A stretch of DNA of 41,475 nt. It comes from Deltaproteobacteria bacterium (GTDB lineage: Bacteria; Desulfobacterota; Desulfobaccia; Desulfobaccales; 0-14-0-80-60-11). The notes under the pieces were generated by a model that had not been told where the DNA came from, did no database searches, and saw nothing but the letters and a program-made list of their open reading frames with translations. The stretch covers positions 1 through 41,475 of the forward strand of contig VGSJ01000019.1 in NCBI GenBank assembly GCA_016875015.1, read 5' to 3'. The number at the start of each line of letters is the position of its first letter. The first letter of the stretch is position 1. Positions 38,160 to 41,475 of the stretch are shown piece after piece. Position numbers and translations under genes: made by a program.

Positions 38160-38657
38160 GCCGTCATACTCCCCCCTTTTCTAAAGGGGGGTTGGGGGGG
38201 ATTAAAAACCGTTGGATAATCCCCCTAAATCCAATGAGGTTTACTTAAAGAGGGGCTTCAAAATGTAGGGCGGGCATTGCCCGCCTAACCACTTGAAAGA
38301 ACATCCGAAAGCGGCTGTTCCACATTTTTTTTGTCATTGCAAGGGCGGTTCCCTGCAAAGCATAGACACCTTAAGTGAACCGTATTGCCCCTAAATCCCT
38401 TTAAGAAAGGGGGACTTATACCAATGAGCAATCAAAAGACTATTTTTGTCATTCTGAGCGCAGCGAAGAATCTCTCCTTTAAAGCCGCCGAGATTCTTCA
38501 CTCCGCGGCGCTCCGTTCAGAATGACATGAATTTTCATAGTTTTTTGACTGCAACTTCGTATTACAACCATCCCTTGCCCCTGGTGGCACAGGCTTCCAG
38601 CCGGTGTATCGGCAGGGTGCGCCCAGCACATCCAAAATGGCGGGCAATGCCCGCCTA
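38160..38657. repeat. Repeat-dense gene-free region
   Basis: The 530-base gap between tRNA-Ser(GGA) and the small gene holds no gene but several unrelated palindromic repeats. Partial relatives of the 173-bp MITE interior lie at about 38168-38202 and 38390-38416. GGCGGGC-type palindromes lie at 38273-38288 and 38639-38654. A long inverted repeat spans 38448-38526 (GTCATTCTGAGCG... ending in ...CAGAATGAC, with GAATCTC/GAGATTC inside). A rearranged GGTGGCACAGGC unit lies at 38581-38620. Confidence 0.75.
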
Positions 38658-39771: not shown

Positions 39772-40965
39772 CTAGCCGCTGAGTTCTTCCTTTTCCAGGA
39801 CTTTTTCGCCCCACAGGGAGATGACGATGGCCCCGGGCGGGGCGGTGATCAGGACCGAGAGCACCGCCATGGCCAGGATGAGTTCGCCGCCGGGGACCCC
39901 GGCCTCCAGGGGAATGGCGCCGATGGCCGCCTGGACGGTGGCCTTGGGGATATAGGACATGATGCAAAAAAGCTTTTCCCGCCAGGTGAGCCCGGCCCCC
40001 AGGACGGACAGGTAGGCGCCCAGGGACCGGAAGATGAGGCCGAAGCCTATGATCGCCAGGCCGGCGGCCCCGGCGCCCCAGGCCACCTTGGGGTTCACCT
40101 GGGCCCCCACCAGCACGAAGAGCAGGAGTTCGGCAAAGACCCAGAGGCGCTGGAGTTTCTGCGCAATGATCTGCCCCAGGCTCTCGGCCTTCTCCAGAAT
40201 GACCAGGCCCATGGTCAGAACCCCCAGCAGGGAGGCGATGGGGACCAGGTCTTGAGCCAGGTCGCCGATCCAGGTGAGGACGATGGCCACCCCCAACACC
40301 ATGATGGTGCGCCGGGGGCTGGCCAGTTCATAGCGGCTGAAAAACAGGTAGAGGAGGTAGCCGGCCACCAGCCCCAGGAGGATCCCCAGGATCACGGCGA
40401 CGGGGATACTGGCCAGGTCCCAGAGGATGCTGCTCTTGACCCCCTGGTAGAGACTCAAAAACTGGGTGAAGATGACGATGGCAAAGACGTTGTCCAGGGC
40501 GGAGCCGGCCAGGACGAAGGTGGGAATCCCCTTCTTGGCGCCTTTGCCCTGCTCCATGAAGTAAATCATCATGGGCACCACCACCGCGGGGGAGACGGCG
40601 CCGATAATGGCTCCCAGCATGGCGGCCTGCAGCCAGGAGAATTTGAACAGGTACACGGCCGCCAGACTCACCGCGGCGATCTCGCAGGAGGCGGGGACGA
40701 AGCTCATGAGCAGGGCCGGGCGGGCGGTGCGGTTCAGGGTCTCCCGGCGCAGGGTGAAGCCGGCCCGGAGCAGGATGACGATGAGGGCGATTTTGCGGAA
40801 ATCCGCCGAAACCGCCATCATTTCCGGGCGCAGCAGCCCGAGGACATGGGGCCCCACCAGGATGCCCGCCAGGAGCATTCCCACCAGGCCCGGCATTTTC
40901 AGGCGGCGGAAGAGGTAATCGGCTCCCAAACCCAGGATGATGATCAAGGCCAGGCTGATCGCCAT
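39772..40965 (-). CDS. Cation:proton antiporter (CPA family)
   Basis: A 397-residue membrane transporter with about twelve helices. The core helices include GLVGMLLAGILVGPHVLGLL, AAMLGAIIGAVSPAVVVPMM, and VLAGSALDNVFAIVIF, which has the acidic residue expected at the ion site. The final helix is SYIPKATVQAAIGAIP. It resembles Na+/H+ and K+/H+ exchangers of the CPA1/CPA2 group; the ion cannot be assigned. CTGGAGGAG precedes the ATG. It is preceded by a fluoride riboswitch and terminator on the same strand, so its likely task is protecting the cell during fluoride stress. Confidence 0.9.
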   Translation of the reverse strand: MAISLALIIILGLGADYLFRRLKMPGLVGMLLAGILVGPHVLGLLRPEMMAVSADFRKIALIVILLRAGFTLRRETLNRTARPALLMSFVPASCEIAAVSLAAVYLFKFSWLQAAMLGAIIGAVSPAVVVPMMIYFMEQGKGAKKGIPTFVLAGSALDNVFAIVIFTQFLSLYQGVKSSILWDLASIPVAVILGILLGLVAGYLLYLFFSRYELASPRRTIMVLGVAIVLTWIGDLAQDLVPIASLLGVLTMGLVILEKAESLGQIIAQKLQRLWVFAELLLFVLVGAQVNPKVAWGAGAAGLAIIGFGLIFRSLGAYLSVLGAGLTWREKLFCIMSYIPKATVQAAIGAIPLEAGVPGGELILAMAVLSVLITAPPGAIVISLWGEKVLEKEELSG

Positions 40966-41013: not shown

Positions 41014-41051
41014 AAAAAAAGCTCCTGAACCCCATGGGGTAATCAGGAGCT
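41014..41051 (-). terminator. Riboswitch-controlled terminator
   Basis: On the minus strand AGCTCCTGA pairs with TCAGGAGCT, with an inner ACCCCATGGGGT hairpin and seven Ts. Its first arm contains AGCTCC, the same bases needed for the riboswitch pseudoknot, so the two structures exclude each other. Confidence 0.93.
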
Positions 41052-41187
41052 ATCAGCGTCAGCGCGGTTCGGGCCGTGATACCGACTCGCAATCGCTCCT
41101 CCGGCGCCGGCTAAAGCCTGCGGCGGCCATCAAAAACTTTTGGATTGCAACTCGGTATGAACAGTTTCCCAGGCGAGCTCCATCGCC
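41046..41187 (-). promoter_or_regulatory. Fluoride riboswitch (crcB motif) with insertion
   Basis: Helix P1 reads GGCGATGGAGCTCGCC (41187 down to 41172), differing by one base from the well-known Bacillus cereus aptamer as I recall it. The 3' core reads AACC, a short GCG-CTGA-CGC hairpin, TGAT, then AGCTCC (41069 down to 41046). GGAGCT in the P1 loop is complementary to AGCTCC, forming the pseudoknot. In known fluoride aptamers P1 and P3 are separated by a few bases; here 102 bases intervene, folding as one long arm. Fluoride binding would hold AGCTCC away from the terminator and switch the antiporter on. Confidence 0.9.
41077..41160. repeat. 84-bp imperfect palindrome inside the riboswitch
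   Basis: Arms TGATACCGACTCGCAATC (41077-41094) and GATTGCAACTCGGTATGA (41143-41160) pair with three mismatches in 18. The middle holds a second palindrome (GCCGGC..., CCGCAGGCTTTAGCCGGCG on the minus strand). The shape is that of a small palindromic insertion. No full second copy is seen in this window. Confidence 0.75.
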
Positions 41188-41211
41188 GTCACATTACCGT
41201 TCTTTGATTTA

Positions 41212-41240
41212 TTGTTAGCGCAGATGACCTGACAAGTCAA
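41212..41240 (-). promoter_or_regulatory. Promoter of the riboswitch-antiporter transcript
   Basis: On the minus strand, -35 TTGACT (41235-41240), a 17-base spacer and -10 TAACAA (41212-41217). The predicted start lies about 20 bases before the riboswitch P1 helix. Confidence 0.8.
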
Positions 41241-41407: not shown

Positions 41408-41475
41408 ATGAAACCACGATATCGGGTTACGTTAACTGAGCAAGAACGTCAGGAACTCGAGAGTTTAAAAACGGG
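41408..41475 (+). CDS. IS630-family transposase, N-terminal fragment
   Basis: Only 22 codons are visible before the window ends. The beginning KPRYRVTLTEQERQELESLK matches the start of the helix-turn-helix domain of IS630-type transposases (the V-T-L-T-x-x-E-R pattern). AGGGGGAGGG lies 7 bases before the ATG. IS630-type elements duplicate TA, the same target as the 173-bp MITEs here, but whether this transposase moves them cannot be judged without its terminal repeats. Confidence 0.75.
   Translation, partial: MKPRYRVTLTEQERQELESLKT

Follow-up and report, generated by a model that had tools for sequence, protein, structure and literature searches.

In fluoride riboswitches, the layout of a transcriptional ON switch is one in which a pseudoknot strand overlaps the start of the terminator (PMC11077080), and the Rfam consensus of the fluoride (crcB) family, RF01734, joins P1 to the conserved AACC and P3 by a few nucleotides. 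Short repeats have been described within or near other structured RNAs. Rickettsia palindromic elements (RPE) sit in tmRNA and RNase P RNA (PMC2229807, citing Ogata et al. 2002), and in pneumococci a BOX element lies between two T-box riboswitches 5' of trp, the composite RNA still being transcribed (PMC3049150). Prokaryotic miniature elements of the MITE type are about 100–150 bp long and combine terminal inverted repeats, target duplications, many copies and related insertion sequences (IS) (PMC10969869).

The locus studied here resembles RF01734 in its P1, pseudoknot, AACC, P3, CUGAU and a terminator overlapping the pseudoknot strand, and departs from it by a 101-nt linker (18–25 nt in sister leaders) that contains a member of a MITE-like family with such sizes, inverted repeats, target duplications and copy numbers, and with a candidate related IS. 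It shares with the Rickettsia case (PMC2229807) a palindromic mobile element within a structured RNA, although the family is different and the host is a ligand-binding regulatory aptamer instead of tmRNA or a ribozyme. As with the pneumococcal BOX, a short repeat has entered a riboswitch leader, but within the aptamer and not between two riboswitches (PMC3049150). No precedent for a transposon inside a riboswitch aptamer was found in the literature searched, partly by rare exact phrases and with subscription journals mostly uncovered.

Results

The leader and its riboswitch

The window, that is, the whole stretch of 41,475 nucleotides analysed, belongs to a draft assembly that is 99.96% complete. 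Its RF01734 match (41196–41037, minus strand; 25.3 bits, E = 0.00047) scores below the gathering score of 34 because of a long insert between P1 and AACCG, gathering being a search cut-off and not a structural feature. The structural features of the family are present: a P1 hairpin with GAUG and the L1 pseudoknot strand, GGCGAUGGAGCUCGCC, the same as in the orthologue of genome G004; a 6-bp pseudoknot joining L1 to the 3' strand, GGAGCU/AGCUCC, with full complementarity; and AACC, P3 and CUGAUR, GAACCGCGCUGACGCUGAUA. The 3' pseudoknot strand opens a strong terminator, AGCUCCUGA..UCAGGAGCUUUUUUU. The parts of the leader, in the order of transcription, are the following:

41211–41240, minus strand: promoter-like site of the riboswitch transcript, TTGACT-N18-AACAAT (or N17-TAACAA), at a similar position in several sister leaders
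41172–41187, minus strand: fluoride aptamer P1 hairpin GGCGAUGGAGCUCGCC; the loop strand GGAGCU (41181–41176) is pseudoknot strand 1
41161–41171, minus strand: 5' half of the original P1-P3 hairpin (U GGG AAA CUG U); sister leaders have a GGGGUGA..UCACCC hairpin at this place
41158–41160, minus strand: target-site duplication, copy 1 (RNA UCA; plus strand TGA)
41080–41157, minus strand: 78-bp MITE-like element with ends TACCGAGTTGCAATC / GATTGCGAGTCGGTA, folding into one long arm
41077–41079, minus strand: target-site duplication, copy 2 (RNA UCA; plus strand TGA)
41071–41076, minus strand: 3' half of the original P1-P3 hairpin (CGG CCC), from sister-leader comparison
41056–41070, minus strand: conserved GAACC and P3 (GCG-CUGA-CGC, 41065–41056)
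41046–41051, minus strand: pseudoknot strand 2, AGCUCC, exact complement of 41181–41176 and at the same time the beginning of the 5' arm of the terminator
41014–41051, minus strand: intrinsic terminator AGCUCCUGA..UCAGGAGCU-UUUUUUU, seen in the sequence, with computed pairing of about 1 for nearly all pairs
39772–40965, minus strand: Na+/H+ exchanger (PF00999) downstream of the riboswitch, 397 aa, with an intact ORF and GGAGGAG 5' of the ATG

A consensus terminator scanner missed the terminator at 41014–41051, probably because of its internal loop. Upstream, the contig end (window 41409–41475) falls within an ORF starting MKPRYRVTLTEQERQELE, a start which we take to resemble that of an IS transposase; a Pfam search with its 22-aa piece gave no match, and the break may be repeat-induced.

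A member of a dispersed family of mobile elements

From P1 to the conserved GAACCG, the linker covers 41171–41071, and 78 of its 101 nt (41080–41157) are the element; the original prediction had counted 102 bases, which takes in one base of GAACCG. The 84-bp palindrome that it had described, 41077–41160, does have inverted-repeat ends, and is here resolved into the 78-bp element framed by a 3-bp duplication, TCA at either end when read as RNA. Short and devoid of coding capacity, the element has terminal inverted repeats whose arms are 88% complementary over 16 nt. The predicted fold of the arm has a free energy of -44.5 kcal/mol, equalled by one of 200 dinucleotide shuffles (z = -3.0).

What decides for a mobile origin is membership of a dispersed family, rather than the palindrome itself. 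Used as a query against its own genome, the arm retrieves roughly a dozen relatives (E<0.001); with the family consensus the number of matches rises to 51 (E<=1), so that the search for further copies proposed with the original prediction was answered positively. Close full-length copies measure 101 bp and reach 99–100% identity with the consensus; the riboswitch copy is about 22 bp shorter and 65–77% identical to full copies, a divergence of which subfamily differences may explain part. The ends read TACYRAGTTGC.., and the terminal-repeat motif has 145 matches in the genome versus 7 for a reversed control. Identical TNA trinucleotides stand on both sides in 27 of 35 candidate elements (70–160 bp, good ends, TNA on each flank), and the matching duplications are all TNA (TGA 12, TAA 8, TTA 8, TCA 6). 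The 3-bp duplication is confirmed by a copy on contig C123 flanked by GGCGCGTGA / TGAGACGCGCC, because the joined form GGCGCGTGAGACGCGCC stands uninterrupted at another locus. Family members are abundant in three genomes of the same genus and become scarcer elsewhere in the order.

Several size classes (100, 135 and 143 bp) have common ends. One 143-bp element with the same end type, TACCAATGAGCAATC.., lies in the window itself (38419–38561), between two tRNA genes and with a TTA/TTA duplication; four loci of the genome (L053, L059, L063, L078) carry longer elements with these ends and nested extra sequence, for example CCCCCTTTGAAAAAGGGGG repeats. A preference for hairpin tips was considered, since the sites C123 and C14 lie at the tips of palindromes, yet 33 sites showed no enrichment over the TNA background. 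Rfam searches of 20 loci of the genome, most of them around full copies, placed no further copy inside a known structured RNA; they matched only a c-di-GMP-I riboswitch, at a distance of about 1 kb from the copy at its locus.

As for the mobiliser, several contigs of the genome end within an IS whose end reads TACCAAGTTGCCATC. This IS is nearly complete in genome G015, with a broken transposase, the pieces of which match HTH_33 and DDE_3, a pair of domains that we presume to be associated with IS630-family transposases. Its ends begin TACCAAGTTGC like those of the MITEs, although only about 11 bp are in common. An IS with these transposase domains may mobilise the MITEs. The usual target duplication of IS630 elements is the TA dinucleotide, unlike the 3-bp TNA of this family.

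Uninserted relatives and the original site

Matches to RF01734 occur in all 29 genomes of the order at a loose cut-off, and in 23 of the 29 above the family cut-off. They fall into two types, distinguished by whether a hairpin separates P1 from GAACCG, and the riboswitch in the window is of the type that has one. Riboswitches of the two types are frequently neighbours in a back-to-back arrangement, no more than about 200 bp apart (L099, L102, L103, L105, L111, L112). Fifteen hairpin-type riboswitches of the order have no insert, and their linkers of 18–25 nt, mostly 19–21, fold into a hairpin in which the pairs at positions 4 and 6 covary (for example C-G/U-A and A-U/G-C). These uninserted leaders include those of orthologous antiporters in G004, G009, G011, G017 and G021 (proteins 70–91% identical, one split over contigs), and others precede more distant or fragmentary antiporters of G008 and G014. 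The latter genome has ten or more fluoride riboswitches, of which contig C58 carries seven. Since a search of three genomes of the same genus for the antiporter gave no match, the uninserted leaders closest to ours belong to other genera.

When the element and one TCA are removed from the window, what remains is UGGGAAACUGUUCACGGCCC, exactly 20 nt, folding as GGG-AAA-CUG-UUCA-CGG-CCC. The insertion point is thus the apical loop of a pre-existing P1-P3 hairpin, and not a bare junction. The prediction that an element had inserted between P1 and P3 is supported, whereas the short bare joint assumed as ancestral does not apply here, a hairpin of about 20 nt having already been present. The GGG/CCC and CUG/CGG pairs flanking the arm, also predicted, are a remnant of that hairpin according to the sister leaders.

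Could riboswitches of this type instead have long possessed the arm as a structural domain? A precedent of form exists in an uncultured Spirochaeta (L091:5818–5946), where MFS transporter-like and enolase-like genes lie downstream of a fluoride riboswitch (30.9 bits) that carries, at the same position between P1 and P3, a GC-rich hairpin of about 67 nt. Enolase is a fluoride target. This hairpin is single-copy in its genome, and is therefore not evidently mobile. Against an old domain at our locus, none of the sister leaders found in the order has the arm, the family is dispersed and TNA duplications flank the element, which makes this explanation extremely improbable and eliminates the case, named in advance as a refutation, in which all orthologues carry the arm. 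Taken together, family copies, TNA duplications and uninserted relatives support the view that a palindromic element landed in a riboswitch. The accompanying statement that no such insertion had been described agrees with our finding no report of one, but the Spirochaeta riboswitch shows that a long P1-P3 arm as such is not unique.

That riboswitch emerged from an IUPAC scan of the genome contig collection for long-insert fluoride riboswitches. Its ten matches comprised six tandem riboswitches (L088, L089, L090, L092, L094, L096), two coding-like chance matches (L087, L093), one long P3 (L095) and the P1-P3 arm of L091. The apparent tandems come from Acidobacteria, Pelotomaculum, Anaerolineae and a Bacillota MAG. 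In some pairs each copy is followed by a terminator; the first copy of L089 looks partial. In L095 (1610–1749), a fluoride riboswitch of Planctomycetota ZRK32 (48.4 bits), P3 is extended by an 83-nt arm.

Probable retention of switching

We consider it very probable that a MITE inserted, with TNA duplication, into the loop of the P1-P3 hairpin of a terminating fluoride riboswitch that most likely still acts as an ON switch, its function being deduced from sequence and folding models. In this scenario, the non-autonomous palindromic element would have entered the apical UUCA loop of the short hairpin and duplicated its 3-bp TNA target. Because the two inverted repeats of the element pair with one another, it would form one long RNA arm pointing away from the ligand core; P1, the GGAGCU/AGCUCC pseudoknot, AACCG, P3 and the terminator all lie outside it. 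The arm is transcribed and completed ahead of P3 and the 3' pseudoknot strand, so that the stretch in which aptamer and terminator compete, from that strand to the U tract, is unchanged. Fluoride would then stabilise the pseudoknot, AGCUCC would be withheld from the terminator and the antiporter gene would be transcribed.

In agreement with this, P1, the pseudoknot, P3, AACCG, CUGAU, the terminator, the promoter position and the antiporter ORF are all intact. On the P1 side the core agrees with the G004 orthologue at 16/16 positions, and on the 3' side at 28/30 aligned ones, while the element has diverged from the full copies as described above; the core has thus outlasted the decay of the element. 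In the computed fold, stem pairs of the arm have probabilities >=0.97 bar one mismatch, and the arm forms at nearly 100%. Neither a CrcB nor a CLC homologue was found in the genome, nor a further credible fluoride riboswitch (RF01734), which probably makes this locus the main fluoride response recognised there. The riboswitch is predicted to bind fluoride.

A different outcome would be that the insertion broke the riboswitch, leaving a decaying relic leader and an antiporter now constitutive or off. The sub-threshold Rfam score is compatible with this, as are P3, which has only 3 bp and is weak in MFE models irrespective of the insert, and an alternative upstream pairing, GAACGGU/ACUGUUC, which competes with the base of the hairpin. 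Such a loss is nonetheless quite improbable, given the intact P1, 6-bp pseudoknot, AACCG, CUGAU, terminator and ORF next to an element at 65–77% identity, and given that this is the sole recognised fluoride-responsive locus of a genome devoid of CrcB and CLC.

Alternatively, the element might have been domesticated, the arm being under selection because it aids the P1-P3 hairpin or folding, or delays aptamer completion, thereby tuning the fluoride response. Its ends pair at 13 of 15 positions, with one G-U in addition, the highest count in a comparison of 15 full copies, and the computed probability of P1 rises from 0.73–0.75 without the arm to 0.84–0.96 with it. How far the end pairing speaks for compensatory evolution depends on the assumed parent: under simulated neutral decay it is rare when known copies are the parents (P<0.01), but from a parent with near-perfect ends as few as two changes suffice (P 0.02–0.19). 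As the arm is present in only one species, covariation offers no test. We regard domestication as unlikely; a neutrally tolerated arm within a riboswitch that still switches appears the better account.

Discussion

This locus is a clean case in which a mobile hairpin entered the interior of a ligand-sensing aptamer and destroyed no recognised part. It identifies the loop of the P1-P3 hairpin as a place where the fluoride aptamer can expand, and explains why model-based searches can under-score or miss such riboswitches. More generally, it offers a mechanism by which structured RNAs acquire extra stems and, if co-option were true, the domestication of transposable elements would be a route to new riboswitch helices.
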